Below are positions 2,580 through 19,630 of a stretch of 24,129 bases of DNA, in pieces (the first letter of the stretch is position 1; each line of letters begins with the position of its first letter). The position numbers and the translations under genes were made by a program. The stretch comes from a virus. The notes below the pieces were generated by a model. It was not told the DNA's origin. It ran no database searches and was given only the letters and a program-made list of their open reading frames with translations. Location: IMG/VR virus record IMGVR_UViG_3300037891_000536, positions 1-24,129 of that record; one strand, given 5' to 3'.

Positions 2580-4374
2580 ACGATCCAATTCCAATGTTCC
2601 TGCTGATTGGTCACAACAAGACCGTCGATTTGGTGAGTCGATCAAGCAGAATCTAGATACGCTCCAAGGATTGCGTGGTGACAAGTTAGATAGGGCGGTT
2701 ACTTTCAGAGACCTATTGGACGCTGGAATAGTGAAGCTTGCGTCAGGGATAACCAACTTCAATGGTCTTTCCTCAAGCATCGCAATCGTTAATGAGTTCC
2801 CAGACTTGGCGATACCGCCAGCACCAACAAATCTGCAAGCTAGCGGTGCATTTAGAAACATTATCCTGACTTGGAATCTGAAGATTTATAACGGTCATAG
2901 CGCAGTACAGGTATGGAGGCACACCTCTGATGTGATTTCATCAGCGACTATGGTTGCTCAGGTATCTGGCTTTACGGGCGTTTACGCAGACCCTGTTGGC
3001 TCTGGGAAGACCTTCTACTACTGGGTTCGGGCAATCAACAACAACGACGTTACCGGACCATATAATTCTAGTTCAGGGGTGCAGGGTGTTACCGCCCCAG
3101 ATGTTAATTTTCTATTAACTACGTTGACTGATTCAATAACTTCTGGTCAGCTTGCTACTAGCCTTTCCACTCCTATTGCGAAGATCGATCCGCTTGAAAC
3201 CTTTACTGGATTTTCATCTAGTTACAGCGGCAACAGTTTGCTGACACGCATGGGCGCTGTAGAAACAACAGCGAACGGTGCAGCAACGTCTGCTCAATTT
3301 AGTTCTGAAGTTACTACAAGAGCCAGTGCTGACAGTGCGTTGAGTCAGTCCATCACTACAGTCAGTACTACACTCGCGGGAAACACTGCGGCGGTGACAG
3401 CCGCAGCGACCAGTATCAATGGGTTAGAGGCTCAGTACACCGTAAAGATTGATCTTAATGGGGCTGTAGCGGGGTATGGTTTAGCCAGCACAACGACAGC
3501 GTCAGGCAATATTGTTAGCGAGTTTGTCGTCAACGCGGATCGCTTTGCCATCATGCGTGGCGGATCTAACACCACTGCCGCCTCAGTCCCTTTTATAGTC
3601 CAGGCTTCAGCAACCACCATTGGTGGGGTAGCAGTCCCCGCTGGCGTTTATATGACCGATGCATTTATTCGTAACGGGTCAATCATAAACGCTAAAATTG
3701 CGGACGCAGCTATCGATAACGCTAAGATCGCGAATCTAGATGCCGGCAAAATAAATGCAGGGACGATTAGCACCAGCAGACTAAACATTGATGGAAGCAC
3801 GCTGTCTTCTCTTAACGGCGTTTTGCAAGTTAATGAATTAAACGCAAACAAGATCACGGCAGGGACACTTAGTTCAAGCAGATTGTTTCTTGATGGAGTT
3901 ACGATAGACACAGATGGATCTGGTCGAGTAATTATCAAAAATCTCGGGGTGGACACCTTGCAAATCAAAGGTAATGCAGTGACGATTCCGACGTCGGCAT
4001 ATTCTAGTGTAGCTAATGGTCAGATAGCTGTTGCCGTTCCTAGAAGCACTTCGTATACAACGCTTCAATCGCTTTCGTTTACGTCAGCAGGCTCCCCTGC
4101 GTTAATTGTCGCCAGTTTTACTGCAAACAACACCAGCGGCAGAAGCCACAGTGTCACTGCCGTAATAAAAAAGGGTGGGACCATAATCTATACGCAGAAA
4201 CGTGCGGTAACCACTGGAGTGATCCACTTCAATATATCTTTCACTGACTTCAGCACTACTGCTGGCAGCTTAACTTATACCCTTGAGGCGAGAAACAACG
4301 GAGGCTCCGTCAACAGTTCATCAGGCACCAATGCGGATGAAAGAAGCCTCGCTGTTATTGAGGTTAAGAAGTGA
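2572..4374 (+). CDS. tail tip / fibre protein with FN3 and J-like DUF1983 region
   Basis: The preferred start is GTG at 2572, eight bases before the previous stop, because GGAGAG lies at the right spacing before it; a longer frame from 2503 would overlap the upstream gene needlessly. The product has 600 residues. Residues about 80-178 look like a fibronectin type III domain (PPAPTNLQASG, then YYWVRAINNN). Residues about 285-345 (GYGLAS, SEFVVNADRFAIMRGG) match the DUF1983 region of lambda J-type central tail/host-specificity proteins. After this come repeated IADAAIDNAKIANLDAGKI and ITAGTLSSSRLFLDG motifs seen near the end of such proteins, and a terminal beta sandwich. It likely sits at the distal tail and contacts the host surface. 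A J-like protein next to a T7-like core is a mosaic arrangement. Confidence 0.75.
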   Translation: MHKRSNSNVPADWSQQDRRFGESIKQNLDTLQGLRGDKLDRAVTFRDLLDAGIVKLASGITNFNGLSSSIAIVNEFPDLAIPPAPTNLQASGAFRNIILTWNLKIYNGHSAVQVWRHTSDVISSATMVAQVSGFTGVYADPVGSGKTFYYWVRAINNNDVTGPYNSSSGVQGVTAPDVNFLLTTLTDSITSGQLATSLSTPIAKIDPLETFTGFSSSYSGNSLLTRMGAVETTANGAATSAQFSSEVTTRASADSALSQSITTVSTTLAGNTAAVTAAATSINGLEAQYTVKIDLNGAVAGYGLASTTTASGNIVSEFVVNADRFAIMRGGSNTTAASVPFIVQASATTIGGVAVPAGVYMTDAFIRNGSIINAKIADAAIDNAKIANLDAGKINAGTISTSRLNIDGSTLSSLNGVLQVNELNANKITAGTLSSSRLFLDGVTIDTDGSGRVIIKNLGVDTLQIKGNAVTIPTSAYSSVANGQIAVAVPRSTSYTTLQSLSFTSAGSPALIVASFTANNTSGRSHSVTAVIKKGGTIIYTQKRAVTTGVIHFNISFTDFSTTAGSLTYTLEARNNGGSVNSSSGTNADERSLAVIEVKK

Positions 4375-4760
4375 AGAACTACGTCGTATATAACGAGCAA
4401 GGAGCCATCGTTAAGACGGGGCATTGTGTCGATAGTGATTTGTCTATGCAGGCTGGCGTTGGCGAGACAGTAATAGAGGGCACTTTAGGCGAAGGAGCTT
4501 ATCATGTTGTTAATGGCTTAATTGTCGCCAAACCTGCTCCCTCTGATAGCGATAAAACTACCCAGGTGCTGGAGCAAGTAAGACGCGAACGAGACCTAAT
4601 CCTTTTGTCTACTGACTGGACACAAGTAACAGACTCCCCATTGACCGCAGAGCAGCGCAGTGAGTGGCAAATGTATCGACAGGCATTGAGGGATTTGCCT
4701 GCTGACTACTCTTATATAACTTCGTTAGAGCAGGTGACGTTTCCAGAAGTACCTAGCTAG
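4371..4760 (+). CDS. tail assembly chaperone-like protein (Phage_tail_APC type)
   Basis: A 129-residue protein with a GTG start overlapping the previous stop (GTGA). Residues 1-60 are a small beta-rich part (YVVYNEQGAIVKTGHC). The C-terminal region has the motif RRERDLILLSTDWTQV followed by PLTAEQRSEWQMYRQALRDLP, the conserved core of the phage tail assembly chaperone family found after many tail fibre genes. In those phages the protein helps fibre or tail-tip folding and is not always in the virion. Its place directly after the J-like gene supports this. The assignment rests on the recognisable motif, not on a search. Confidence 0.72.
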   Translation: MKNYVVYNEQGAIVKTGHCVDSDLSMQAGVGETVIEGTLGEGAYHVVNGLIVAKPAPSDSDKTTQVLEQVRRERDLILLSTDWTQVTDSPLTAEQRSEWQMYRQALRDLPADYSYITSLEQVTFPEVPS

Positions 4761-5209
4761 TGGTCGTCGGTGAAATCACCGCGATTATTGCAGGAGTCAA
4801 TGCTGCTACTGCTGCCATAAAGCAAGTGGCAGGCGCAACTGACGACCTGTCAAGTATTGGTTCGTTTCTAACTAAGCTGGGTGGAGCGGAGGTCGAGCTT
4901 GCTAGGGCGGCTAACGACGGCGGATTGAGTGAAGCGGATGCAGTCAAAGCTGCATTAGCTAAAAAACAGATTCAAGAGACCATGCGCGAGGTGAAGGACT
5001 TATTTACCGTCAGCGGAAACGGGCATTTATACGCTGAGTGCATGATTCAAATGGCTGAAGCGAGGAAGGCAAAGCAAAGGGAACTTGCTGCGCGGATTGC
5101 TACTAAGAAAAGACTTAGAAAGGATTTAGCTCAGATTGGGGTTATTGTTTTGATTTGCTTGTTAGTGGTCCCGCTGGCTCTAGGGCTCTTAATCTATCGA
5201 ATCATGTGA
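4760..5209 (+). CDS. small protein with C-terminal membrane anchor, unknown function
   Basis: A 149-residue protein starting with GTG that shares its first base with the previous TAG. The N-terminal half is Ala-rich and helical (IIAGVNAATAAIKQVAGA), the middle is a long charged helix rich in Lys, Arg, Glu and Ala (about 85-125), and the end is one strong membrane helix, IGVIVLICLLVVPLALGLLI. The N-in/C-anchored layout is unlike a typical holin or an inner-membrane spanin. Similar small proteins occur in other podovirus-like genomes beside tail or internal core genes, but I do not recognise a named family. It is the last gene before the 194-base non-coding gap. Confidence 0.65.
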   Translation: MVVGEITAIIAGVNAATAAIKQVAGATDDLSSIGSFLTKLGGAEVELARAANDGGLSEADAVKAALAKKQIQETMREVKDLFTVSGNGHLYAECMIQMAEARKAKQRELAARIATKKRLRKDLAQIGVIVLICLLVVPLALGLLIYRIM

Positions 5210-5224
5210 AGAACAAAACAGGGT

Positions 5225-5362
5225 CGGCGTTGCTTTGCTAACGCCTACAAAAGGACTAAAATAAGGGTGCTCAACTCTAATTCTAAGATTACTGAGCGCC
5301 TCTAAACTGGGTAAGCAGCCGTCCGGCAGAGCTTAACCCAGCAACGCACACCGATCATGGTG
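5225..5362 (+). other. structured non-coding gap with four consecutive stem-loops
   Basis: The 194 bases between 5210 and 5403 contain no credible gene but several inverted repeats in series: GGCGTT/AACGCC (5225-5244); an 8-base-pair stem GGTGCTCA/TGAGCGCC (5266-5300) with one G-U pair and an inner TAAT/ATTA stem; CTGGGT-AAGC/GCTTAACCCAG (5307-5341) with one bulged base and an inner GCCG/CGGC stem; and CACC/GGTG (5349-5362). None is followed by a clean T-run, so a simple terminator is unlikely. It separates the tail module from the core module and could be a leader RNA, an RNA processing site or a small RNA. Only the pairing is seen; the function is unknown. Confidence 0.5.
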
Positions 5363-5403
5363 GACGTCATTACACGGATCAACTTTAGCAACTAGGCACG
5401 ATT

Positions 5404-5868
5404 ATGGCTTTTGTCGTTCGTCCTTCCTCTATTGAGGATTACGAATCAATAAACGCATTAGGTCGCTGGTTTCAAGAGAACAGCTTGTACGCAAATTGCG
5501 GGTGGTCTGATCAAAAATCACTCGCCCTTGTGCAGGCTGGATCTAACCCAGCATCCAACACGTTTATGAGAGTTGTCGAAAAGGAAGGTCAGATCGTTGG
5601 CTTTTTCTTGGGCTACATAAGCGAGTACTTCTTTTCTGAGAAGAAGATCGCGCAAGACATGGTTATGGTTTTTTCTCCAGATCAGCGCGACGGGATATCA
5701 AAGCCCACAGTGCAGGTGTTGCGAGAGTTTGTTAATTGGGCAACGGGTCGCGGAGTCAATGAGGTTTGTATTGGAATCACATCAGGCATTGCAGGCGCGG
5801 GTTACGAAAAGTTGATCTTAAAAAACGGCTTTAAGAAGGTCGGAATAATTATGAAGAAAGAGGTGTAG
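5404..5868 (+). CDS. GNAT-fold protein at the T7 gp13 position
   Basis: A 154-residue protein with the layout of GNAT N-acetyltransferases: FVVRPSSIEDYESINAL at the start, a central beta pair (MRVVEKEGQIVGFFLGY), the acetyl-CoA-loop-like QRDGIS at about residue 98, and a final YEKLILKNGFKKVG. In T7, gp13 is a GNAT-like DUF2833 protein of similar length encoded just before internal core genes 14, 15 and 16. The same order here makes a gp13-like role in core assembly at least as likely as a metabolic acetyltransferase. No substrate can be named. It opens the core operon after the structured gap; its ribosome binding site is weak. Confidence 0.7.
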   Translation: MAFVVRPSSIEDYESINALGRWFQENSLYANCGWSDQKSLALVQAGSNPASNTFMRVVEKEGQIVGFFLGYISEYFFSEKKIAQDMVMVFSPDQRDGISKPTVQVLREFVNWATGRGVNEVCIGITSGIAGAGYEKLILKNGFKKVGIIMKKEV

Positions 5869-5870
5869 TT

Positions 5871-6443
5871 ATGTGCGGAGGCGGAAGTGATTATGGACCA
5901 GAAGAATCTGAGTCAAGGCTAGCGTTAGCGCAGCGATCAGCAGTCGATTACAACAGGTTTAATGAAGTCTTTGGCAAGTTTGAAGACATGGCGATAGCTG
6001 ATGCAACCGCACAATTTAGTGATCAAAACTACAATTCTGCGATGGGTGCTGCCTCTAATGCGGCTCAAGGCGTATACGAGCAAGGTCAGATAGACATGAA
6101 TCGCGCAGCTTATAACCGAGGTTTTGACCCTTCATCTGGCGCAGTGCAAAACGAATCAGCGGCTCTCATGGCAGCTAAAAGTAGAGGTATGGGTTTAGGA
6201 GCGAGTTCCGCCGGAATTGCCAACACTGATCGCGGCTTCCAGATGTTGGGCAACGTAGTAAACATCGGGCAAGGGCTACAAAACGACTCAATGCAGGGTC
6301 AGATTGATGTTGCTCAGACTGGTGTTGATCGGGTCAGCAGGCAGGCTCAACAAGACTTTATGAGGTCCAGTAGTCTGCAAAACATAGCAGGCACCGCTAC
6401 AGGTGTTGCCGCTGGCTACGGTCTTCAACAGAGGACTGTCTAA
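5871..6443 (+). CDS. internal virion protein, T7 gp14-like by position
   Basis: A 190-residue protein with a good GAGGTG ribosome binding site. It begins MCGGGSDYG, a start I associate with internal core proteins of podovirus-like phages, and is rich in Ala, Gly, Gln and Asn. Its length and place match T7 gp14 (196 residues), the first ejected core protein, which forms the outer-membrane channel during DNA entry. Residues 174-187 read GTATGVAAGYGLQQ, a segment that recurs in the protein encoded at 6940. The assignment is by context and composition; there is no decisive domain. Confidence 0.6.
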   Translation: MCGGGSDYGPEESESRLALAQRSAVDYNRFNEVFGKFEDMAIADATAQFSDQNYNSAMGAASNAAQGVYEQGQIDMNRAAYNRGFDPSSGAVQNESAALMAAKSRGMGLGASSAGIANTDRGFQMLGNVVNIGQGLQNDSMQGQIDVAQTGVDRVSRQAQQDFMRSSSLQNIAGTATGVAAGYGLQQRTV

Positions 6444-6943
6444 TGTCTAATTTTTTCTTAGAGATGATGAACGGGCTGAACCCTGAGTCTCAAATGGCTG
6501 CCGGTCAGTTTTTCCAGACTGCACAAACGCAGAGGATTGACCCATACGGCTACCTAGGAATGGACCCACGGCTAAACCCTGGGGACAAACTTTACGCAGA
6601 CATTATCCGCGCACAAACCTCCGACTACATGAGGAAGTTCGCCCCAGTGGAAGATGCTTTAGCGGCATCAATTACTCCTACAGGAACAACTTCTCTTGAA
6701 GGAGACCTCACTAGGACGAGAGAGGCGGTTATGGGTGCGGGGCTAAACATCCAAGGGCAGCAAGGTCGTGCCATGGAGCGTCTTGGCGTAGCGGACAACT
6801 CAGGATATTCAAATCAAAACGCTAACGTATCCGCTTTAGTTGGTGGATTGAACGATACAAGACTAAGGGACAGTGATAGACGCGATGCATTGCTTACAGG
6901 CACTACAACTGCGTTAGGTCAGAAAGCAAGGAGTGGCGCATGA
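6443..6943 (+). CDS. small virion-associated protein, internal core region
   Basis: A 166-residue protein whose ATG shares one base with the previous TAA (TAATG). It is soluble, with no membrane segment, and contains RIDPYGYLGMDPRLNPGDKLYADIIRAQ near residues 30-60 followed by an Ala/Gly/Gln/Asn-rich second half like that of its upstream neighbour. I do not recognise a named family. Translational coupling on both sides places it in the ejected core protein set, so a structural or scaffolding role for the internal core is the best inference. Confidence 0.55.
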   Translation: MSNFFLEMMNGLNPESQMAAGQFFQTAQTQRIDPYGYLGMDPRLNPGDKLYADIIRAQTSDYMRKFAPVEDALAASITPTGTTSLEGDLTRTREAVMGAGLNIQGQQGRAMERLGVADNSGYSNQNANVSALVGGLNDTRLRDSDRRDALLTGTTTALGQKARSGA

Positions 6944-7494
6944 CGTTAATAGCTGTTGGACAAGGGTTGCGCAAAAGATCTAACGCAGGATTTTCCGCGA
7001 ACGCTCAGTTAGAAAATAGAGAAAACGCTGCGGCAGACCAGATAGAAGCTGCCGAGATGCAGCAACGGAGCCAGTTGTACGGAACAGCTTCCGGTATTGG
7101 TGCTAGTTACGGTTTGCAGAAATCTTTGCAGGCGGGGAAAGCGGCAAGTGATTCTGTAAGTACTTTGAATTCCATGGCTGGAGTTGCGGAAAGTGGCGAG
7201 TTTGCTACCAAAGGTGGGAAGTTAATTTTCAATCCAGCCTCTGGCGAGGCTGCTGTAACCGGCGCGGAGGGAGTCGCTGCTGTTTCTGAGACTCTGGCAA
7301 CCAATGCAGCACTAGAAGGTGGAGCCGTCGCAGTCGGAGAAACCGGAGCTGCTGTCGCGGCTACAGAAGGGGCAGCAGCTGCTGCTGGTACAGCCGCCAG
7401 TTCAACTGGAACCATGGCAACTCTTTCTACTATTGCGGCTCCTATAGCTATTGGCTTGGGCGCTGCTTTTTTGATCTCAAAATTATTTGATTAG
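6940..7494 (+). CDS. small Ala/Gly-rich virion protein with hydrophobic C-terminus
   Basis: A 184-residue protein with AAGGAG seven bases before an ATG that overlaps the previous stop (ATGA). Residues 48-61, GTASGIGASYGLQK, nearly repeat the C-terminal segment of the protein encoded at 5871. The C-terminal half is very rich in Ala, Gly, Thr and Val and ends in a membrane-like segment, TIAAPIAIGLGAAFLISKLF. This composition suits a protein that inserts in or crosses the envelope during ejection. No family is recognised. Codon order along the Ala-rich part also leaves a long open frame on the other strand, which is a shadow. Confidence 0.55.
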   Translation: MTLIAVGQGLRKRSNAGFSANAQLENRENAAADQIEAAEMQQRSQLYGTASGIGASYGLQKSLQAGKAASDSVSTLNSMAGVAESGEFATKGGKLIFNPASGEAAVTGAEGVAAVSETLATNAALEGGAVAVGETGAAVAATEGAAAAAGTAASSTGTMATLSTIAAPIAIGLGAAFLISKLFD

Positions 7495-7501
7495 GTGATT
7501 T

Positions 7502-9004
7502 ATGGCTGTTCGTAATTACGGTGGATTTGGTGCTGGACTGGCGCAAGGTTTTGGTTTGGTACAAGGCGTACAAGATCGGTTCGATAGAAACGAGCTAGCT
7601 AAGGATACGCTTGAAGCTAAGGTTGCTAGTGATGAAGCGACTGCGGATTTTCGGACGAAACAGTTAGGTCTGCAAGCTGAAGAGAATCGGTTGAGGCTTA
7701 TGTCAACGGCTGCGACTGCGCAGGCTACAGCCGACAATAGAAGATTGACGTTAGAGGAAACCAATCGCCGGAATCTAGCTGATGAAGAACTAAAGCGTAA
7801 CAAGCAAAAATTCGACCAAGACCCGAACAATCCAGCGAATGTAAAAACAACACTTGAAAACGAACGCAGACAATCTTATCAGGCAAAAGTTAACCAAGCA
7901 GGAGCTTTAGATCGATTACATAGCCTGCTTACTGATACTGAAGACTACACACCAGAAACTCTTAATCAAGTTAATGAGTTGGTAGCGTCTCTGGAGGGGG
8001 GCATATTCGATGTTGGCGATATGGTTAGTAAAAAACAGGGTGAAGGAGCGAGAGCTATTCAAGCTTTCACTTACAACCTTTCTCAAAACCCTGGCGCACA
8101 AATGACTGATGACGTAACTGACGCTTACGGAAGGGCATTGAACCTAAATAGATCAGCAAATATCGGGCGCAACATCGGCGCCGAGTGGAGCAACGCTCCG
8201 CAATGGATTCGGGAAGACGGTAACTACAAAGTATCAAAGATTGCATTAGCTAATGTTAAAGGTAACGGGGTTCAACCTAATCCATCCAATCCTGGTCAAC
8301 AGGACGTAACGCTTAGTGCCACCGTATACGTTGAAGCTACTAACGCGCTCACTGGCGACGTTCAGGTCTATGAAGCTCCGTTGACAGGTAACAGGGCGAT
8401 CACTGATGGAGAAGCTGTAGCAATACAACTTTCTCAGGTTCAAGAGGTCGCAGCAGCCGGACACTATATGTCTGGAAGTATATCGCCGCAAATAAGGAAT
8501 GGTGTTCGTCGGGCAAGAATTTTGCAGCGTTTCGGCGATCCGGATGGGGACGGCATAGGCTCTGACGGACAAGCAGAGTTTGCGAAGGCTGTTGACGATA
8601 AGGTAGAGATTGTTAGACGCGCTATACAAAATGGCGATAACAACACATTCATAAACTTAGTTAGCTCCGATGAAGCAAACGCTTTGGCAGGGAAGAATCT
8701 AACCCAACAACAAATCGATGAAATCACGGCGAGAGTACAAGAAAACCTACTCTTCGACGTTGATCACACCCCACCTCAACAATCTATGCGTCAGTTTATG
8801 GAGCAAACAAGAGCGGATCTAAGTGCAATAGAGCTGCCAACAGGTTTGCAGTTCGTAGAGCCGGCGCTTCAAGGAAGGGACAACGTGACTCTCGGCGAGG
8901 TTTATACACTGACAAACAACGCGATAGTTTCACAACTAAACGGGGTTGCGGACGATCCGAAAAAACTTATAAGAGCAATGAAAGCCGCTGGAAAAATAAA
9001 ATAA
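7502..9004 (+). CDS. internal virion protein, T7 gp15-like by position
   Basis: A 500-residue protein with an AGGTGA ribosome binding site. After a Gly-rich start (MAVRNYGGFGAGLAQGFGLVQG) residues about 25-140 form a long charged helix or coiled coil. The middle part is a mixed globular region and a DPDGDGIG loop lies around residue 348, a Ca-binding-like Asp cluster. The order (small gp14-like protein, this protein, then the giant protein) matches T7 gp15, a helical core protein that forms the periplasmic tunnel with gp16. It is shorter than T7 gp15 (747 residues). The assignment is by position and architecture; no sequence family is claimed. Confidence 0.58.
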   Translation: MAVRNYGGFGAGLAQGFGLVQGVQDRFDRNELAKDTLEAKVASDEATADFRTKQLGLQAEENRLRLMSTAATAQATADNRRLTLEETNRRNLADEELKRNKQKFDQDPNNPANVKTTLENERRQSYQAKVNQAGALDRLHSLLTDTEDYTPETLNQVNELVASLEGGIFDVGDMVSKKQGEGARAIQAFTYNLSQNPGAQMTDDVTDAYGRALNLNRSANIGRNIGAEWSNAPQWIREDGNYKVSKIALANVKGNGVQPNPSNPGQQDVTLSATVYVEATNALTGDVQVYEAPLTGNRAITDGEAVAIQLSQVQEVAAAGHYMSGSISPQIRNGVRRARILQRFGDPDGDGIGSDGQAEFAKAVDDKVEIVRRAIQNGDNNTFINLVSSDEANALAGKNLTQQQIDEITARVQENLLFDVDHTPPQQSMRQFMEQTRADLSAIELPTGLQFVEPALQGRDNVTLGEVYTLTNNAIVSQLNGVADDPKKLIRAMKAAGKIK

Positions 9005-9023
9005 CTGAAGTAAGGGAAGCCTG

Positions 9024-12000
9024 ATGCCATTAAATTCTTATACTGGTAGGCAAGATCCGTCTGCACGTTATGAGCCTAAAGCCCCTAAAGAAAAAAGATT
9101 TCAATCTTATCGTGATTTTGATCTATCTACTTTAGAGGATTTGTCTCTCGAAACTGAGGGAGAAGACTTTACAGTCCCTAACCAGCCAGATCCGGTAACT
9201 CCAACAATGCCGGCAGTGCAAGCTGCAAGCGTTCCGCCGCCCAGCGAAAACGCTCAATTTCAACAAACTGAAATGGAGCGCATTAACAATCTGGGTGATG
9301 CGTTATTAGAGGAAGAAGACTCTCAGTTTACTATGGGTGCCATCGCTGGCACTCAGCAAATGTTGGGCTTATATGGGGCAGCTAAAGCTACTTTAGGATC
9401 ACTTGTAGATGATCAAGAAATGGTCAATTCAGGGCTGGGGTACTATCAAGAAAAAATGCGTGAGGCGGAAAAATTCTCCCCCAACGTAGGAACATTAGAA
9501 GAGATAGACCTGACTCTAGATGGCGGCATGGAGCGGTTAGGCGATTACCTTGGTTATACGATCGGTAACGTATTACCTAGCATAGCTATAAGTTTAGGTA
9601 CTGGTGGAGTAACAGGTATAGTAGCCGGTACTGCGGCAAAGTACTTAGGGAAGGAGGGTGCTAAGGAAGCTTTAGAGGCGCTAGCTAAAAAACAAATTAA
9701 AGATGAAACAACCTTGGGTAGTGAAGGTTTATCTAACGCTCTCAAGAAGCTTCGCCTTAAAGACAGGGACTTTGACACAGCGGAAAATGATCGCCTACAA
9801 GAACTGATCCGTGAGGACATGGAAGGGGCGATAGCTAAAGAAGCTGCAAATAGAGCCAAGCAAGACTATATAAGTAAGCAAGCATATAAGTACGGGTTAG
9901 TCGGATCTGGATCGCAATCAGTAACTCTCAACACGGGTGAAAACTTTGGTGAGATATATGAGAGAACTGGCGTACAAGCTCCAGGCACCGCTATTGCTGC
10001 TGGTATAACTGCCGGAGCTCTGGATACCTTCGCAGTACCGTTGCGTGTGGCAAAGCAGCTTACGCCGGACATGCTGGAGCCGTTAAAAGATTTTCTAAGT
10101 GCGGAAGCATTACAAAAATCAGGAGCTATCGAGAGGGTTCTTAAAGAGGTTGGTAAGACCTCTGGTATCGAAGGCATGACAGAAGCTACTCAGGTAATGA
10201 TTACTGAGATGGCTGTAACCTTTGCCAATAACAATTTCACCGATCAGCAAAAGATAGAGTACTTAGAAGCTCTCTCTAATGAAGAAACAAGATCAAAAGT
10301 AATGAACGCCGCTGCTGCCGGATTGATAGGTGGCTTTGCGGTATCGGGCGTTACAGCACCAATAGGCGAGGGTGTAAGCGCCCTTAGAGGCAGAGAGCCT
10401 GAACCTAGTATTCGTGACGCACTAATACAAGATACTGAAAATCGCCTGCAAGCAATGCGAGACTCTGTTAGAGAGGTTGTTGATGCAGAGTTTACTGAAT
10501 CGTCTAACCAAGCATTACCAGCACCTGAAGCAAGTGATACTCAGGAATTAGTTGGGAATCAGGAAGTAGCTACTACACAGCAGCCATCGGTCGACAGTAA
10601 TATTGTAGATAACTTAGAGACGATTGATCTTTCTGCCGGCATTACCTCTGAAGAATTAGCCGAGGCAATGATGGAGACTCCTGAAAACCAACAACAGCTT
10701 ATAACTGCAATGTTGGCTGATGGGTTAATTACTGCTGATTCTACAGGTGGCACTACCACCTATAGCGTTAGCAATAAAGGCAGCATGATTCTTTATCCAC
10801 CCGAAGAGGTTGACGAAGGGTTAGTAGATCTTCCGCCTGTACCTTCACCAGTGGCGTCTACGACTACAGTTGAAACAGATGGATCGACAACGACTACAAC
10901 TCAAACTCTCGACGAAATTAGAGAGGATGCTGTTGCTGTAAGCGAAGAGACCCCACAGACAGGAGTTGCAGAAACCACTCCAACTAGGACTAGAGCCGAA
11001 CCCACGATGTCATCGCGCATTGAGGGTAGAGGCACAATTAGTACCAACGAGCCCGTAGTGTCGCCACTTATTGGTCCCGTAGACAATAAGCCCCTAAATG
11101 ACCGTGGTCCTTTCGTTAGCCCATTAACCGATGAAAATCGCGTTATAGCAAAACCTACTGTAAAAAACACCCTTAACGGAATAGGTATCCCTGTCACAGA
11201 GGTCAGCTTCCCCGACAGCGGCACAACATATCAAATGAAGGAGTACGCAGCGGATGCTGGCGGAGGTTGGTATTTAGCTTCAGAAGGATTGCCAGAGCTT
11301 GGTGTTGGGAGTAACGGAAGACTTAATGTTGACCTTGGGGACAACAAAGGTTCTGCGGTGCAAACTCTCGCCGGCATAGAAAGGCAGAGAGCTAGTACGG
11401 CGGTGCAAACTCCTGTTGCTGAAGAAGCTCTGGTAGAGGGTGTTGCAGAGCCAGTGGCTGACGCCGCTCCAATCGTTGAAGATCCGATTCAAAGGAATGC
11501 AGAAACATTAACGGCTATGGCTGAGTATGCCGGATGGGAAATAATCGGTGGAAAAGGTATTGTTGGACCGGAAGGCGAATCATTAGGTCGGTCTCCTTGG
11601 GTTGCTCGATCAGAATGGTTCCAACAGGCTCAAAAAGATGGAAACTTAGGAGGCAATACAAACGGTGAGGCAACTCGACGGGTTGTCGCAAAAGCAATTG
11701 CTGGAAAGAAGCTAGGGGTTGTAGAGCAGCGGCATATAGATTCCATGCTTGGTTATCTAGCGGATCTTGAGCTTATAGAACAAAGTCAACAGAGCAGTGT
11801 CATAGCTGACTTGTCCCAAGAAGGTGCTGGGGTAACTGTCACAGAATTAGAGTACGATGACGCATTAGCAGGCATTACTTTAGGCGATACTAATCGTCTC
11901 GAACTGCCAGTATGGGGCGAGATGACTGACAGCGAGAAAGACGCTGAACTTAACAACATATTTGGGGAACCTGATGGAAGAGAAACCAATGCAACTCAGC

Positions 12001-15000
12001 GAGAAGCAGAAGCGCGGACTGCAATTTCTGATCGACGGCAAAATGCCACCAATGAACGAGAACTCGCAGCGGTACGCGAAGGCGATGTTACGGAAGATAC
12101 TGGACGAGAGAGCGGACAAACAGAAAGCAGAGTCTCTCAGCCAGACGCAAACCCGAAACAAAAAAGAAATTTAGATAACCCAGACACCGAGACAGATTTA
12201 ACCTTTCCGGATGGTGATGTACGAACGATTCGTAAAGACGGTGAGTTTTGGTATGACGCCGAAACTGACTTGGAGTTGGGCGATAACAAACGGGAAGCTG
12301 TTCAGGCTATAAAAGATATCCGGCAAGAAGAGTTTGCCGCATCCGGCGGATCTGTTCAGGAAGCTCCCGCAACTCAAGAGCTTAGAGTTAAAGACCCTTC
12401 GCTCGACGCCAACAAATCAACGAAAAAAGATAAAGATTTTCAGCAAAACGGTGAACACATCGTTTCGTTTAGTGATGGCGATGAGCGCAGAATGTTCTAC
12501 GACGCTCAGTCCAGAAGCTGGTATGACCGAGAAGCTTTGGGTACTGCTGCTAAAGGAATGGATGGGTATCTGGGCGGCAACAAGAAAGACGCGCTTGAGC
12601 GATTCAAAGTGATTCGTCAGAGAGAATTTGACGAGCAGCAGGCGACAGATCCTTCAGATCAAATGATTATCGAAGTTGCTGGAATAGATGCGTTTCCTGG
12701 CATACCTATAGGTGCAAATCGAGCATCAGGGTCGATTACTGGTTCCGGCATGATTGAAGGGGAGCCCAACCCAACGATCGCCCAGAGAATAACCGCCATG
12801 AACCTGATGAAGGACCAACAGGTTCAAATGGGTCAGACTGGTGATTCGTTCACCCAGAAGGCTTTTGGGAGCATGTCGATGCTCTATAGAAATCTTGCGT
12901 CTTCAGGCAAATATGGAAGTGATAGAAATCCATTTGTTGTTGTTGAGTCAGACGATGGAAGGCAAGTTCCGTTGATGCCCTTACTTGATGAATACAGCGG
13001 CGACTTAACTGATAGCTTAGACTCTAGCTCTGAAGTTGCACAATTTGTTCACGTTCTGTTAGACCTGGTCGAAAAAGGGATGCCTGTCGATTTTGTCACC
13101 AATACTAATGGCATTTTTGTCAATGATTACAACCGAAGCGTTGCGGGTTCATTCTACCCAAGTCGGTTTTCAATAAGCGTTAGGCAAAGCCTGCTCGAAT
13201 CAGCTACGACAGACCTCCCTGCAAGAGCGAGGCTAATGCATGTCGTGGCTCATGAGCATTGGCACTTGGCTGACGAGCTAAATGGTTACTCCGCTAGGCT
13301 TCCTGAATTACGAATTGACATTGACTCTTCAGGTGGCTTCGTCGATCCAGACGACGCCGTCGTTTCTCTCGATTTTGCTGATCCAGTTGGTCGTCTCTAC
13401 GAGGAATGGGCTAGAGGGACTGAGTTGGGTAAAGAGTTCCACTACCCATTTGCTATTATCGGAAACACGCTAACAGACATCAATGAGAAGTATCCAGATC
13501 AGCCATCGCAAATGAGTGAAAGTCTGCGCACATTTGAAAAAGAAGTTTTTGCGCAGGCTGGCGCGGTGTTCATTACCAAGCCAGATCTGTTGAAAAACGT
13601 ATCACCAGAGATATACAATCTATTCAGGCTTATTCAGGCTGAGCCATTAAAAACCGCAGGACAACTAATAAACGATGAAAATAAACGTACCCCTAAAGAG
13701 AACAGAGAGCCCAGCGGTAGCTCAGTACCGTCAGAATTTCGGTCACGGACCAGCAATAGAGTCGTACAAATTCCTCTCAACAGAGGAAGTGGACCAGATA
13801 GCTCTAGAGGCGGTTCAGGCGGACGAGCCTCACCTACCATGGAGAGATCGACCTCAGATCAAAACAGGGACGCATCTGGACGCTCTCTACAAGTAACCCC
13901 TTCCTTAGACGTAAGGTTTGAAGATCTCCCTGAAGCGTCTCAAAGACTAACAGCCTCTCCCGTTCTGTACGGTGATCAAGCGCCTAGCCAAGTAGAGGGC
14001 AAGCCTACGGTTGTTAAGGTTGCTAGGGAATTCGACAATATAGCTAGCGCAGCATATCCACGCAGGGATTTGTCAGAGCAAACTGATGAGAATTCGGAAA
14101 TTATTTCAGATCTCATCGCTCACGAGGCAACTGAGGCGTTAAATAAAGAAGGTAACGCTGGGCAGTGGTATCAAGAAAAAGTAGCCAACGCCATGAGTCT
14201 CGCGGCGGAGCGATTCCCAGAGCTCAACAACGATCCAAATGCAAAGTTCGCGTTCACTGCGATTATGGCGATCACCAGTAACGGTGCAGACGTCCCAGGA
14301 AATTCTGTAAACACGTTCACCATATACGATCAGTATCGGGAGTCTAAAATCTTTCCTGATTTTGGTGCCGGAAAAGAGAGTCAAGCTATGAAAGCTGCTT
14401 TCATGCAGCTCAACGATCTCATTTCTGCTAGCCGGATAGATTCTGTGAGAGAGTTTATGGACCAAGACGTCACCGTTAAAGAGCTAAAAAATGACTACGG
14501 TCTGAAGGTTTCTGGCGAACTAATGGGTACTAAGTTAAAAGGTTCAGCCATCTTGGGACCAAAGATTGGTGGAGGGTTCTACCAAAACCTGAACGGCAAC
14601 TTCGATCCTTTAACTATGGACCGTTGGTTCATGCGCACTTACGGCAGACTTACTGGCTCCTTAATGAGCGAAGCTACTCGAAAGCTTCCAGCACAAATAG
14701 CTAAGTTTAGAGAAGTCGCCTTAAGTGACAGTTACAAAAAGAAATTAAAAGATGATGGAATAAGCAGGGTGCAGTTGCGAAATGATGACGACTACCTAGT
14801 CGACTACGCAACCAGGGTGCAACTTGCATATAGTAATGGTGGTTTCAAAATCAAGAGCACCATTAACAAGGCGTCTAACACCTTAAAAAATTCTCAGGGC
14901 GAAAAACAAGCGCCACAAAATGGCAACGAGCGAGAATATATACGCAGTGTGATGCAGAAAGCGTTAGATAAAGTAAATCTCAATTTCCCTGAAGATCCTA

Positions 15001-18000
15001 TTAACATGGGCGCGTTGCAAGCTATAATCTGGTATCCAGAAAAAGAGCTATACAAGCTGCATGGAGTAGGTAACGCAAAATCGGAGCCGACAGATTATGA
15101 AACAGAATTCAGAAAAATCATTGAGAGTGGACAAGGTGGACAGAGATTACCTAGATCAAGCAGATCTGCACTCGAGTCTGGAGCAGGAAGAGTTCAACGA
15201 ACAACTGGCGAAATTAACGCCGACTCAGAGCAAGTTGAACGCCCAGAGGTTCGCGAACAAAATCAAAGCGAAGTAAATGTTACTCCTTCTCTGGATATGG
15301 CAAACACGCCAGCATTCAGAGAAGCCCCCGATTCTCTGGCAACCAGGAATCGACTTGTTGATGACCTAGAAAACGCCGCCATCCCTCAAGGTGAGGATGT
15401 AGCCGACATAACAGATCAAGACCTTGACGCTATGTCTCCCGACTCTAAGCGTCTTCTCAAAGCGTTGCGAGACGATGACTGGTTAGGCTTCGATAATATC
15501 GACGACCTCCTAACTACCATCTTTGATGAAGGCTTAGACGGCTACGAAACATCCATCGCAACTCGCATAGCTCTCGGTCGGTACGTCAACCAAAACTATG
15601 GCGGGATAACTACATCGCTCGACATGCTTGCGAAGGGTGATCTTGACAATATACCCAACGACCACAAGTTTAACGGTGAAGACGCAACCGACATTGTGAA
15701 GGATCTTCAGTATCGGCTGGAAACCTTGCTGCCTTTCTACAAAGGGATCATGGATCAGTACGTCGACATGAAGCAGTTGGAGCGCAAGATAGCAGCTAAT
15801 CGAGGGCTGGAAAGATTGCCTGCATCCGAGTCCTTCTATGACTCTGAAAACCTTATGCATGGTAAGTCTGCTTATGAGTTAGATCTAGTTACCAAAAATT
15901 ATTTGATCCCCATTCAAAAAGTTTTAGCTTCTAAGAATCTTGATGTTGAAGCATTCGGTAAATATCTTTTAGCTAAACATGCCCCAGAGCGCAATGTGGT
16001 TATTGCACAGAAGGCTTTAGAGAAAAGAGAAAAGCTAGTAGCTGCTGCGGAGAATGCTGAAAACCAACGGATGATTCAGTACTTTGAAGAAACCCCTATC
16101 CCATTTCAAGATTACGAAACGGAGCAGGGCGGCTCGGGTATTAGTAGCAAAGAGGCTGTGGATATTCTTGCTCTGGCAGAGTTTGATGGCTTGTCTGGGA
16201 CAATGGAAGAAGCTGCTCAACTGGTTTACGACATGCTCAAAGAGCATCGAGACCGTATGGTAGAAAACCAATTATTGGATTTTGAAACCGTTGAAGATTG
16301 GGAAGGGCAGTATCAGTTCTACGTTCCACTCAAAGGCTTTGCGGCAGAAGAGGGCATCGATGCCGAATACCGCATGTCAGATAAAACCAGAGGCTTCTCT
16401 ATTGTAGGCAGTGAAAGCTTGAAAGCTAAGGGGCGCACCACGCTTCCAGCTAATCCGTTGGTAATTGCCATCTTAGACGTCGCTGCAAAAATCAAGGGCG
16501 GCGAAAAAAATCAAGTAGCCAATGTGCTATTGGACATGCTCCAGAACTCTGGTTTTGAAACTGATCCCGAGATCACCGAAAAAGATCCACGGGCTCCATG
16601 GACCATATATAACAACAAATATAGACCAAAGGAAAATCGTACTGACGGCGCTACCATGATCCCATTGGATCAAATGTCTAAAGAAAAAACGGTGAGTGGA
16701 GAGCCAAGATTTGTAGTTGTTAAGCGCGGCGGTCAGACGTTCTTTATAGAATTCAAAGATCCAGAGCTTAACAAAACGATACAGAGGTTGGGCGAGTCAC
16801 CATTTAACCAATACAATTTAATTGTGTCTCGTGGCGCTAAGTACCTGTCTACTTTCCAAAACTTCCGCCGTAACATGTTGATTAACTACAACCCTGCATG
16901 GGGATTAGTTAACCCTATAAGAGACGTTGTAACCGCCATACCCTACGCGATGTCTGAAAGTCAGGCTAAAGGTTCTCGAACTGAAGGGAAAGGCATAGTT
17001 CGCAAGATGGTGCAAAACTACCCCAATGCACTACGCGCATACTGGAGGCACCTCAGAGAGACGGAGGGTCGCGGAAAGGCTCTCACAGCTAGAGGCAAAG
17101 CGAGACAAGCTGAGTACGATCAATACGTCAAAGAATACTTCGAGGACGGCGCTCCAACAGGCATGATTCTGACGCGAACGTATGATGAAGAGGTCGCAGC
17201 TATTGAGCGTCAAGTTAAAGGCGGTGACGTTAGAGGTGCATTCGTTGCGATGGGTAAGTTCGTGGAGGACTTTAATCAAACTATGGAAAATGCTGTTCGA
17301 GTTTCAGCGTATGTTGAAGCTAGAAAAGCAGGCTCTCCGAGGGAAAACTCTGCAACCTTAGCGAAAGATTTGACTGTTAACTTCAACAGAAAAGGTGAAT
17401 CAAACGCCGCTATAAATCTTGCGTACTTGTTCTTCAACGCTGCTCAGCAGGGTACATTAAACTTCATACAGGCTGTGGGAAGGCATGGGATGAAAGTCCC
17501 CGCTTTTGCTGCTGGCATGGTTGCGTTCGGGTATGCGACGACAGTCTACAATATCTTAATGTCACCAATGGACGATGATGATGGCGAATTTGAGGAGGAT
17601 GATAAGTTTTTAGACACTCAGCCTTCGCTGATCGAATCGTTCATGGATGGAGACGCAAGCCAAACAAAGTACGCGGACTACTCTGATTATCAGTTAAAGC
17701 GTTCGATTAGCATAATGAGAGAAGACGGATCAATGGTTTCCCTACCGATGGCTTATGGTTGGATGTTTTTGCCAAACCTCGGGCGTTTGATGGCTGAGTG
17801 GCAGTTTGAGATCAAGAGTGAGCAAGAAGTTGTTGGTCAGATCGGTCAAACACTAATAGACAACTTTAGCCCTGTTGATACAGCAGCCGGAGAGGGCGTT
17901 GAGTCATTGCGTGGATTCGCTCCTGATATAGGGGAGCTATGGCTTGATTTAGTTGCTAACAAAAACTACTTCGGTTCGCCAATACAAAAAGAACAGACAC

Positions 18001-18635
18001 CCTTTGAAGCTCCAAAAGCTAAGGTTCATGTTACTAAGCGAGGCACCTCAAAAGCAGCTAAAGACGTACTCCAATACCTGAACGATTTGGATGGATCTAA
18101 GTTTGATGACAATGAGTACTTGCCATACAACTACCTAACGCCAGACAGAGTGGATTATGTTTTTGCGTGGACGCTAGGCGGGGTAGGTAGGTTTGTCGGT
18201 GATGTATCGGATGTAACGTACAAGGCAGCGACAGATCCAGACGCAATAGAGCTCGTTGACTTCCCTATCGTTGGGCAGTTTTACAAAGAGCCAAGCGCGT
18301 ACACCGACCAGATGAACTACTACGAGAATAGGAAGGATTTGCAAAGCAAGATTGCTGAGCTAGAAGAAGCTACCACGCCAGAAAAAAGAGAAAACTTTAA
18401 GCGAAGAAACCTAGAGCCTTTTGTAACCAGAACTATGCAAGAAGTGTACAAGGCGAGTGACAAGGAACTAAGAGCTATAAGAAAGGTGCAGAACTTCCAA
18501 GAAGCACACTTGACCGACGACGCGAAGTTAAGAGTAGAGATTGAGAGGTTGGATAAGTTGAAGCAAAAGATTTACGACAGATTCAACAAGTTTTATGAAA
18601 ATGCTGTAAAGAAATCGAAAGAGCAGGCTAAGTGA
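9024..18635 (+). CDS. giant polyvalent internal virion protein (3203 residues) with zincin-like and LPD38-like modules
   Basis: The ATG follows AAGGG at good spacing. Modules seen in order: a hydrophobic-segment N-terminal region (about 172-207 and 431-450); an acidic/Thr-rich linker to about 725; three copies of a WY...LG-NK repeat (727-790, 1059-1105, 1147-1203); a zincin-like module with HEHWH at 1410-1414 and a possible third ligand Glu1507 in KEVFAQA; the motif VTPSLD at 1624; a conserved unnamed module with DRWFMRTYGR and QAIIWYPEKELY (about 1630-2030); VTPSLD again at 2086; and a C-terminal part resembling 'large polyvalent protein-associated domain 38', with NPAWGLVNPIRD and LTVNFNRKG (2783-2791), a membrane-like segment at 2825-2846 and an acidic tract after it. 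Polyvalent proteins are thought to be packaged and injected with phage DNA. It sits where T7 has gp16 (1318 residues), so a role in ejection is likely. No transglycosylase or RNA polymerase motif was found. Confidence 0.8.
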   Translation: MPLNSYTGRQDPSARYEPKAPKEKRFQSYRDFDLSTLEDLSLETEGEDFTVPNQPDPVTPTMPAVQAASVPPPSENAQFQQTEMERINNLGDALLEEEDSQFTMGAIAGTQQMLGLYGAAKATLGSLVDDQEMVNSGLGYYQEKMREAEKFSPNVGTLEEIDLTLDGGMERLGDYLGYTIGNVLPSIAISLGTGGVTGIVAGTAAKYLGKEGAKEALEALAKKQIKDETTLGSEGLSNALKKLRLKDRDFDTAENDRLQELIREDMEGAIAKEAANRAKQDYISKQAYKYGLVGSGSQSVTLNTGENFGEIYERTGVQAPGTAIAAGITAGALDTFAVPLRVAKQLTPDMLEPLKDFLSAEALQKSGAIERVLKEVGKTSGIEGMTEATQVMITEMAVTFANNNFTDQQKIEYLEALSNEETRSKVMNAAAAGLIGGFAVSGVTAPIGEGVSALRGREPEPSIRDALIQDTENRLQAMRDSVREVVDAEFTESSNQALPAPEASDTQELVGNQEVATTQQPSVDSNIVDNLETIDLSAGITSEELAEAMMETPENQQQLITAMLADGLITADSTGGTTTYSVSNKGSMILYPPEEVDEGLVDLPPVPSPVASTTTVETDGSTTTTTQTLDEIREDAVAVSEETPQTGVAETTPTRTRAEPTMSSRIEGRGTISTNEPVVSPLIGPVDNKPLNDRGPFVSPLTDENRVIAKPTVKNTLNGIGIPVTEVSFPDSGTTYQMKEYAADAGGGWYLASEGLPELGVGSNGRLNVDLGDNKGSAVQTLAGIERQRASTAVQTPVAEEALVEGVAEPVADAAPIVEDPIQRNAETLTAMAEYAGWEIIGGKGIVGPEGESLGRSPWVARSEWFQQAQKDGNLGGNTNGEATRRVVAKAIAGKKLGVVEQRHIDSMLGYLADLELIEQSQQSSVIADLSQEGAGVTVTELEYDDALAGITLGDTNRLELPVWGEMTDSEKDAELNNIFGEPDGRETNATQREAEARTAISDRRQNATNERELAAVREGDVTEDTGRESGQTESRVSQPDANPKQKRNLDNPDTETDLTFPDGDVRTIRKDGEFWYDAETDLELGDNKREAVQAIKDIRQEEFAASGGSVQEAPATQELRVKDPSLDANKSTKKDKDFQQNGEHIVSFSDGDERRMFYDAQSRSWYDREALGTAAKGMDGYLGGNKKDALERFKVIRQREFDEQQATDPSDQMIIEVAGIDAFPGIPIGANRASGSITGSGMIEGEPNPTIAQRITAMNLMKDQQVQMGQTGDSFTQKAFGSMSMLYRNLASSGKYGSDRNPFVVVESDDGRQVPLMPLLDEYSGDLTDSLDSSSEVAQFVHVLLDLVEKGMPVDFVTNTNGIFVNDYNRSVAGSFYPSRFSISVRQSLLESATTDLPARARLMHVVAHEHWHLADELNGYSARLPELRIDIDSSGGFVDPDDAVVSLDFADPVGRLYEEWARGTELGKEFHYPFAIIGNTLTDINEKYPDQPSQMSESLRTFEKEVFAQAGAVFITKPDLLKNVSPEIYNLFRLIQAEPLKTAGQLINDENKRTPKENREPSGSSVPSEFRSRTSNRVVQIPLNRGSGPDSSRGGSGGRASPTMERSTSDQNRDASGRSLQVTPSLDVRFEDLPEASQRLTASPVLYGDQAPSQVEGKPTVVKVAREFDNIASAAYPRRDLSEQTDENSEIISDLIAHEATEALNKEGNAGQWYQEKVANAMSLAAERFPELNNDPNAKFAFTAIMAITSNGADVPGNSVNTFTIYDQYRESKIFPDFGAGKESQAMKAAFMQLNDLISASRIDSVREFMDQDVTVKELKNDYGLKVSGELMGTKLKGSAILGPKIGGGFYQNLNGNFDPLTMDRWFMRTYGRLTGSLMSEATRKLPAQIAKFREVALSDSYKKKLKDDGISRVQLRNDDDYLVDYATRVQLAYSNGGFKIKSTINKASNTLKNSQGEKQAPQNGNEREYIRSVMQKALDKVNLNFPEDPINMGALQAIIWYPEKELYKLHGVGNAKSEPTDYETEFRKIIESGQGGQRLPRSSRSALESGAGRVQRTTGEINADSEQVERPEVREQNQSEVNVTPSLDMANTPAFREAPDSLATRNRLVDDLENAAIPQGEDVADITDQDLDAMSPDSKRLLKALRDDDWLGFDNIDDLLTTIFDEGLDGYETSIATRIALGRYVNQNYGGITTSLDMLAKGDLDNIPNDHKFNGEDATDIVKDLQYRLETLLPFYKGIMDQYVDMKQLERKIAANRGLERLPASESFYDSENLMHGKSAYELDLVTKNYLIPIQKVLASKNLDVEAFGKYLLAKHAPERNVVIAQKALEKREKLVAAAENAENQRMIQYFEETPIPFQDYETEQGGSGISSKEAVDILALAEFDGLSGTMEEAAQLVYDMLKEHRDRMVENQLLDFETVEDWEGQYQFYVPLKGFAAEEGIDAEYRMSDKTRGFSIVGSESLKAKGRTTLPANPLVIAILDVAAKIKGGEKNQVANVLLDMLQNSGFETDPEITEKDPRAPWTIYNNKYRPKENRTDGATMIPLDQMSKEKTVSGEPRFVVVKRGGQTFFIEFKDPELNKTIQRLGESPFNQYNLIVSRGAKYLSTFQNFRRNMLINYNPAWGLVNPIRDVVTAIPYAMSESQAKGSRTEGKGIVRKMVQNYPNALRAYWRHLRETEGRGKALTARGKARQAEYDQYVKEYFEDGAPTGMILTRTYDEEVAAIERQVKGGDVRGAFVAMGKFVEDFNQTMENAVRVSAYVEARKAGSPRENSATLAKDLTVNFNRKGESNAAINLAYLFFNAAQQGTLNFIQAVGRHGMKVPAFAAGMVAFGYATTVYNILMSPMDDDDGEFEEDDKFLDTQPSLIESFMDGDASQTKYADYSDYQLKRSISIMREDGSMVSLPMAYGWMFLPNLGRLMAEWQFEIKSEQEVVGQIGQTLIDNFSPVDTAAGEGVESLRGFAPDIGELWLDLVANKNYFGSPIQKEQTPFEAPKAKVHVTKRGTSKAAKDVLQYLNDLDGSKFDDNEYLPYNYLTPDRVDYVFAWTLGGVGRFVGDVSDVTYKAATDPDAIELVDFPIVGQFYKEPSAYTDQMNYYENRKDLQSKIAELEEATTPEKRENFKRRNLEPFVTRTMQEVYKASDKELRAIRKVQNFQEAHLTDDAKLRVEIERLDKLKQKIYDRFNKFYENAVKKSKEQAK
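11202..12632 (+). repeat. three divergent protein repeats inside the giant gene
   Basis: The protein-level repeat lies at 11202-11393, 12198-12338 and 12462-12632. Each unit starts with a V/L-x-F-x-D-G/S pair, has an aromatic WY (GGGWYLAS, EFWYDAET, RSWYDREA), then LG-DNK or LG-GNK, and ends in a helix of the form A-x-x-x-[IF]-x-x-I-R-Q-x-E-F or similar. The first copy is separated from the other two by about 270 residues including an overprinted linker. DNA identity is low, so this is an old duplication kept at protein level. The repeats probably form a small beta-plus-helix domain that binds something repeated or anchors the protein; no function is known to me. Confidence 0.7.
11974..12174 (+). 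CDS. nested ORF 1 (66 codons, +1 frame) inside the giant gene
   Basis: An ATG at 11974 follows TTTGGGGAACCTG, a plausible ribosome binding site, and opens a 66-residue frame read in +1 relative to the giant gene. The peptide is charged and helical and contains KQKRGLQFLIDGKMPPMNE and YAKAMLRKILDERADKQ. In the giant frame the same DNA encodes a low-complexity Arg/Glu/Thr/Asn/Gln linker (about residues 984-1050), and the natural-looking giant-frame sequence stops at its left edge and resumes at its right edge. It could be an overlapping gene or the ancestral frame of a small gene over which the giant gene was extended. Expression is not shown. Confidence 0.42.
   Translation: MEEKPMQLSEKQKRGLQFLIDGKMPPMNENSQRYAKAMLRKILDERADKQKAESLSQTQTRNKKEI
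13675..13896 (+). CDS. nested ORF 2 (73 codons, +1 frame) inside the giant gene
   Basis: The ATG at 13675 comes directly after tandem in-frame stops (TAATAAACG) and has only a distant AGGAC. The 73-residue peptide reads like a real protein (AQYRQNFGHGPAIESYKFLS, then VDQIALEAVQADEPHLPWRD), whereas the giant frame here is a Ser/Arg/Gly-rich linker (about residues 1551-1624). The stop lies at the exact point where the giant frame starts the motif VTPSLD and a new module. It uses the same +1 frame as nested ORFs 1 and 3. A retained small gene or a true overlapping gene are both possible. Confidence 0.42.
   Translation: MKINVPLKRTESPAVAQYRQNFGHGPAIESYKFLSTEEVDQIALEAVQADEPHLPWRDRPQIKTGTHLDALYK
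15097..15276 (+). CDS. nested ORF 3 (59 codons, +1 frame) inside the giant gene
   Basis: The ATG at 15097 has GGAG ten bases upstream. The 59-residue peptide is helical and charged, with KVDRDYLDQADLHSSLEQEE and NEQLAKLTPTQSKLNAQRF, and ends with TAA directly before the second VTPSLD of the giant frame. The giant frame over the same DNA is a Gly/Arg/Ser/Gln/Glu-rich linker (about residues 2025-2085). It is short enough to be missed by usual length cut-offs. Same frame, same linker context and same boundary motif as nested ORF 2. Confidence 0.42.
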   Translation: MKQNSEKSLRVDKVDRDYLDQADLHSSLEQEEFNEQLAKLTPTQSKLNAQRFANKIKAK

Positions 18636-19345: not shown

Positions 19346-19551
19346 TCATGATGTTTCTTCTTGTTGTCGTAGTGGATAACGCGCAAATCGAAGAAGAGTT
19401 CATGTTTCGAGACATTACCAGATGTAACACTTTTGCCCACTTAATCGAGAGCGGTAAGTCGCCCATGACAGAACGGCACCGACGGCAAGCAAATATCACC
19501 GCATACTGCATACCGAAGTACGGTCGTAAAGGAACCAAGACTTGGGACTAG
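19342..19551 (+). CDS. small protein with hydrophobic N-terminus, unknown function
   Basis: The chosen start is GTG at 19342, overlapping the preceding stop (GTGA); ATG at 19348 or 19351 are alternatives. A longer frame from 19216 lies inside the DUF1289-like gene and is not favoured. The 69-residue product starts with MMFLLVVVVDNAQIEEEFMF, more like a buried beta strand than a signal peptide, then has Cys residues in ITRCNTFA and TAYCIPKYGRKGTKTW. Small proteins of this style are common in marine phages. The stop codon overlaps the 3' end of the convergent tRNA gene. No function is known. Confidence 0.55.
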   Translation: MIMMFLLVVVVDNAQIEEEFMFRDITRCNTFAHLIESGKSPMTERHRRQANITAYCIPKYGRKGTKTWD

Positions 19552-19620
19552 AGGGAGGTCGGAGTCGAACCGACATGAACGGAGTTGCAGTCCGCTGCAT
19601 AACCAGTCTGCCACACCCTC
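19550..19620 (-). tRNA. tRNA-Cys (GCA)
   Basis: On the - strand a full cloverleaf can be drawn: acceptor GAGGGTG paired to CTCCCTC with one T-T mismatch, D arm GCAG..TGC with GGTTA, anticodon stem CGGA/TCCG with loop CTGCAAC (anticodon GCA, at 19586-19588), and T arm GTCGG-TTCGACT-CCGAC. The discriminator base is T, as expected for tRNA-Cys. CCA is not encoded. Because both flanks are phage genes it is a phage-borne tRNA or part of the attachment region, not an adjacent host gene. Confidence 0.9.
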
Positions 19621-19630
19621 CAAAATAGAT

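Follow-up and report, generated by a model that had tools for sequence, protein, structure and literature searches.

The put RNA of phage HK022 suppresses transcription termination through the zinc-binding domain of the RNA polymerase β′ subunit, and to our knowledge antitermination by RNA alone is known mainly from HK022. The published account of putL describes an element of ∼70 nt, with two stem-loops right after the PL promoter, that acts at least 10 kb away (PMC9378689). Another role for structure at the start of a transcript comes from E. coli, where a 5′ hairpin is known to stabilize mRNA (PMC3997798).

Here we analyze a 194-nt gap (5210–5403) in the genome of an uncultured, marine virus of bacteria; the whole stretch of DNA analyzed, 24,129 bases of record IMGVR_UViG_3300037891_000536, is called the window. 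The reading we favor, with a probability of roughly 0.7, is that the gap is the promoter and structured 5′ untranslated leader of an operon for ejection/core proteins. Like HK022 put, this leader is a structured RNA close behind a (predicted) promoter, with more than one stem-loop and a long transcription unit downstream, and leaders of this kind share with put an asymmetric internal loop. Unlike put, which serves early operons, it heads a late virion operon; it has no sequence or covariance match to put, and a put-like function is only conjectural. Like the hairpins of E. coli ompA and papA type, it places a predicted hairpin at the 5′ end of a transcript before a long operon, but it has two more hairpins and conserved loops. 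Among cultured phages, the Bcep22-type temperate podovirus BcepIL02 and Vibrio phage douglas 12A4 both encode a homolog of the window's phrog_511 virion protein (∼32% identity) and, downstream of it, a very large protein; in BcepIL02 the position of the GNAT gene described below is taken by an acyltransferase-like gene. The gap is 59 nt in BcepIL02 and 48 nt in douglas 12A4, with no long leader in either phage, and is absent from CF418P1.

Genomic Context of the Gap

The gap separates the end of one plus-strand open reading frame (ORF; 4760–5209) from the start of the next (5404–5868) and is the sole big non-coding gap in a closely packed plus-strand structural operon, as the initial annotation of the sequence had pointed out. 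The next-largest, from 496 to 559, spans ∼62 nt, and the remaining ORF borders overlap or are short. On the upstream side, all in plus orientation, lie a holin-like gene (559–936), the gene for the phrog_511 virion protein (933–2579), a tail fiber gene that ends at 4374, a fiber assembly gene (4371–4760), and, at the end of the tail-fiber side, the gene for a 149-amino-acid protein with a weak match to phrog_32327 (4760–5209). The first gene after the leader (5404–5868, plus strand) is acetyltransferase-like (GNAT; phrog_1249, E 1.8e-12), and its product has no Pfam match. The remainder of the transcription unit (5871–18635, plus strand) comprises genes for phrog_611 and phrog_596 proteins, two unmatched ORFs, and the gene for a 3203-amino-acid protein. 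The gap thus lies between the tail and core modules, where it had originally been placed.

The 3203-amino-acid protein is encoded at 9024–18635 (plus strand), and its first 659 residues are without a Pfam match; in BcepIL02, a giant DarB-like protein occupies the corresponding place. Named relatives of the phrog_511 protein come from Vibrio, Burkholderia (BcepIL02), and other phages, at ∼24%–33% identity, and the best explanation of the source is an uncultured temperate short-tailed phage, distant kin of the Bcep22-type and Vibrio phages. A tRNA-Cys gene (19549–19621, minus strand) lies near a tyrosine integrase gene (20276–21175, minus strand; PF00589); this is probably the end of a temperate phage that bears the attachment site. 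Genes for a YqaJ-type exonuclease (22549–23559) and a Sak-type annealing protein (23540–24127) adjoin on the minus strand as a recombination pair.

A search of phage DNA with window positions 4400–6500 gave no match, nor did a search with the phrog_611 protein. Genome contigs searched with the GNAT protein yielded nothing, and those searched with the virion protein yielded 19 loci; the GNAT profile found nothing in these 19 loci or in L031–L033. One contig in a Porticoccaceae MAG (L255) encodes a phrog_511 protein with 68% identity to that of the window, a weak hint of a marine gammaproteobacterial host.

A Candidate Promoter and Its Inverted Repeat

A σ70-like promoter, TTGCTA-16-TAAAAT (5235–5262, plus strand), has its −10 box at 5257–5262 and a predicted start near 5268–5270. 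The pattern match is weak alone, being the only one found against 1.6 expected; its score is equaled in 2 of 117 other windows of sequence and 6 of 200 shuffles. All six positions of the −10 box are identical in the two close relatives described below (L034 and L035).

An inverted repeat, GGCGTT-8-AACGCC (5226–5245), overlaps the −35 box. Even with three mismatches allowed, the window has no other copy of it (0 expected), and it is identical at 19 of 20 positions in L034 and 17 of 20 in L035; there is one double change from G-C to A-T and one T-T break, the latter in L035. The initial annotation had drawn this repeat as the first of a row of stem-loops, at 5225–5244. The repeat exists, but because it overlaps the −35 box and lies upstream of the predicted start, it is better read as DNA, outside the RNA made from the promoter, and it is probably a DNA site (an operator or activator site).

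We scanned the 200 nt before the GNAT gene with a rough σ70 table in 40 rows, which are not independent of one another. The best site ranks in the top 5% of its own locus's other windows in 25 of the 40 rows, and 13 of the 40 upstream regions pass a stricter shuffle control (at most 10 of 200 as good); some top-scoring sites differ from those picked by eye. Distant relatives L248–L252 and lineage h (lineages are defined below) have the cleanest sites; none of the σ70 sites in lineages c and d is convincing. The most distant relatives carry canonical promoters in the corresponding position, TTGCAA-17-TATACT in L249 and L251 and TTGCAT-17-TATAAT in L252. Read by eye, an inverted repeat lies over or beside the promoter in many lineages. 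Several of L040, L048, L057, L058, L062, and L066 carry an inverted repeat of the ATACACC..GGTGTAT type between −35 and −10, resembling a repressor site. The promoter match, with its conserved −10 box and inverted repeat, agrees with the late promoter region that had been among the first suggestions for the gap; promoter activity and start position are predictions, and the genes behind the promoter suggest that it is late.

Structure of the Probable Leader in the Window and Its Close Relatives

The gap has a predicted folding energy of −56 kcal/mol, compared with −44.9 ± 3.9 for dinucleotide shuffles (z = −2.84; 1 of 200 as good), and its reverse strand folds too (z = −2.20). The predicted transcribed core reaches z = −3.64 in the window, and the cores of the close relatives reach −4.38 (L034) and −3.75 (L035), with 0 of 200 shuffles as good in each case.

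This core comprises three hairpins on the plus strand. Hairpin 1 (5265–5301) lies at or a few nucleotides from the predicted 5′ end; hairpin 2 (5307–5341) has an apical stem; and hairpin 3 (5344–5367) has the inner stem CACC-GATCAT-GGTG. The bounds of hairpin 2 had been given exactly, those of hairpin 1 nearly so (5266–5300), and a smaller stem-loop at 5349–5362 proves to be the inner part of hairpin 3. They are followed by a tail (5370–5403, plus strand) with the ribosome-binding site, AGG, at 5394–5396. No run of five T occurs in the window's leader and no intrinsic terminator was found on the plus strand of the gap, in keeping with the initial observation that no stem-loop is followed by a T-run; a small RNA, another of the initial proposals, finds no support, and no terminator to end it.

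The same gap is present in two IMG/VR contigs, L034 (identical to L003) and L035 (identical to L001 and L002), at 86% and 84% identity, which together with the window form clade a. In a three-row alignment (A7; 42 pairs, 125 cells), 93.6% of the cells are paired, and this drops to 34%–40% when the partners are slid. Both sides have changed in 3 of the 42 pairs, against 1.0 in shuffles, and 22 of 500 shuffles reach this covariation in an alignment of three sequences only. One double change falls in each of the inverted repeat, hairpin 1, and the apical stem of hairpin 2 (C-G/U-A), and eight pairs deviate through unpaired cells only.

The region of hairpin 1 (5263–5303) is the most changeable element, with 28 of 42 and 27 of 42 letters identical in the two relatives, so its letters change while its pairs are mostly kept. 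Around hairpin 3 (5342–5369), 24 of 28 letters are identical, and the tail is identical at 34 of 34 positions in L034 and 32 of 34 in L035; overall, the −10 box, inverted repeat, and ribosome-binding tail are 85%–100% identical across the clade. Fourfold sites in clade a are identical at 42 of 57 and 40 of 56 positions in the GNAT gene and at 42 of 84 in the phrog_611 gene.

Leader Lineages in Distant Relatives

Searches of IMG/VR with the GNAT profile gave 33 and then 48 loci, many of which are the same contigs. Distant relatives have structured leaders at the same place before the GNAT gene, and these are lineage-specific. The window represents lineage a; L036, L037, and others form lineage b; L055, L065, and L053 lineage c; L054, L056, L059, L060, and others lineage d; and L061, L063, L064, and L245 lineage e. 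There are further lineages f and g, as well as short leaders of type h and others. Leader length and fold vary between lineages, the sequences are unalignable across them, and some relatives have a promoter with a leader of just 30–60 nt, so these data do not establish one conserved RNA. Conserved pairing, together with leaders in the corresponding position of related phages, does support the leader RNA first proposed for the gap.

Folding was tested for 28 leaders, namely L066 and 27 from the 37-row GNAT tree. The z score is negative in all 28 leaders given, and 21 have at most 10 of 200 shuffles as good; several of the short leaders (L048, L057, L058, and L066) fold no better than chance. 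Lineage e is 96.3% paired, with double changes in 10 of 28 pairs (14 cells; 0 of 500 shuffles), and lineage d, in which the sequences are highly conserved, has one double change (61 of 500 shuffles). The compensatory changes that the initial annotation proposed to seek across relatives are thus found in clade a and lineage e. They bear on the view that only the promoter matters and that the hairpins are accidents of a spacer. The existence of promoter-only versions with 30–60 nt leaders would fit such a view, as would leaders that cannot be aligned between lineages, but the negative z in all long leaders given, the covariation of lineage e, and the pairing that clade a keeps despite changed letters in hairpin 1 make chance structure improbable.

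Hairpin 1 might instead be purely an mRNA stabilizer, blocking 5′-end-dependent decay by RNase E with its sequence irrelevant. This is possible, if not the reading we prefer: the hairpin starts at or a few nucleotides from the predicted start, its letters are the freest to change (28 of 42), and relatives with short leaders (L040, L057, L066, and others) have one small hairpin near the start. It leaves unexplained hairpins 2 and 3, the good conservation of hairpin 3 and the tail, and the loop letters of lineages c, d, and e; moreover, the structure in lineage b is away from the predicted 5′ end, and the short leaders that fold no better than chance also speak against it.

A hairpin with the asymmetric internal loop MCUC...GAAYAY (13 rows) is common to lineages c, d, and e, and the unpaired letters of this loop are conserved while the stems change. 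Model R1 of this motif re-finds the three lineages and has no match in the window, where the gap scores at most 5.9 bits even when filters are turned off. Membership of the window's hairpin 1, suggested by eye, is without support from R1, and an R1 match on the other strand of L067 (8865–8916; E 0.009) was taken as chance. The pattern GCTACTC..GAATATAGC occurs at no fewer than 80 loci, at least 8 of them with the family's leader; the others inspected read as chance, and among the paired matches listed the loop motif and its surroundings are confined to the window's phage family.

Loop letters kept while stems change fit recognition better than mere 5′ protection, and raise the prospect of a put-like antiterminator, in which nascent stem-loops would bind elongating RNA polymerase and secure read-through of ∼13 kb, including the 9.6-kb gene. 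The leader's place after the promoter, its size, and its multi-hairpin form match putL as described. We located putL and putR in HK022 by mutual similarity (our placement, not annotated in the record); model R2 finds both, at 92 bits, and matches no leader among 36 sources (best other E 2.2, elsewhere). The leader may thus work like put but lies outside its sequence family. With the c/d/e loop motif not found in the window and no terminator requiring read-through identified, we regard this mechanism as unlikely.

The leader types follow the GNAT tree (37 rows), on which they require 10 changes where at least 9 are needed. Type h is scattered over more than one part of the tree, and L245, with an e-type leader, stands apart from the other three e members; since the tree is compatible with a single origin of each of these types, it is only possible that the promoter-leader block has been exchanged. 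Among the long leaders, that of L047 has the clearest look of a terminator, a stem and then five T (GGATGA..TCATCCTTTTT), and could be an attenuator.

Searches for Other Elements in the Gap

At the gathering score, Rfam (release 15) matches nothing in the gap, a tRNA being its only match in the window, and nothing in 12 related loci. When the threshold was relaxed, the known families of RNA, ribozymes and riboswitches among them, gave only a chance match in the gap (E 3.4). A riboswitch, attenuator, or autoregulated translation, with a ligand or phage protein hiding or freeing the ribosome-binding site or a terminator, would make sense of specific conserved loops and of the window's AGG, which can pair in a weak hairpin. 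Yet roughly half of the region from −15 to −4 is unpaired (0.37–0.74 across 28 leaders), with no consistent sequestration, the window's leader lacks a terminator, virion genes lie downstream, and Rfam is silent. A CsrA gene is above the Pfam cutoff in 0 of 15 records (sub-threshold in 2 of 15), which may be fragments and whose hosts may possess CsrA, and control by CsrA was dropped. We consider this group of mechanisms improbable. Because the ribosome-binding region is separate from the hairpins and not consistently hidden, the window's leader has no terminator, and the genes downstream encode virion proteins, we think it unlikely that the element is a classical riboswitch or a free small RNA.

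A small coding gene in the gap was rejected, as the overlapping ORFs have just 20–29 amino acids; hairpin 3 contains a frame of 12 codons, but by-eye reading of the L001 copy shows an indel that interrupts it. Nine leaders compared by blastn with pieces of nine records returned themselves, sister-lineage copies, and short chance matches, and no second leader copy. A second gap of ∼180–195 nt before a ∼305-amino-acid gene (L068:10349–10543, L070:946–1140, L082:8881–9072, L074:19412–19591) reads as an open frame overlapping the preceding gene and is probably an overlapping gene missed by the naive caller. A search of titles and abstracts, covering few subscription journals, found no paper on a phage late-operon leader of this kind.

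Discussion

We propose that host RNA polymerase would start most likely near 5269. The resulting leader of ∼135 nt would carry three hairpins; beyond these come a conserved region, separate from them, in which ribosomes would bind for the acetyltransferase gene, and then ∼13 kb of virion genes. The leader would act in cis on its own mRNA, through 5′-end protection, specific recognition, or both, and as a cis-acting RNA it may affect mRNA stability, translation, or, in the manner of put, antitermination. Hairpin 1 and the short leaders are accounted for by 5′ protection alone. The extra hairpins and the conserved loop letters would be explained by specific recognition, with RNA polymerase, as for HK022 put, one possible partner. 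The leader probably contributes to the control or protection of a single, very long late message. It is ordinary in kind and new in identity.

A more speculative picture, which we think rather unlikely, is that these are rapidly evolving late-operon leader RNAs with a put-like cis action on host RNA polymerase, by which one promoter would serve the 13-kb ejection unit. Stems would be rebuilt and recognition loops kept, and the promoter-leader block might be exchanged as a unit.

Little is known about structured RNAs in the late operons of phages, and lineage e (L061, L063, L064, and L245), in which covariation is strong, offers a compact, testable RNA. A promoter and leader at the border between the variable tail-fiber genes and the conserved ejection genes would allow expression of the core whatever is swapped upstream.
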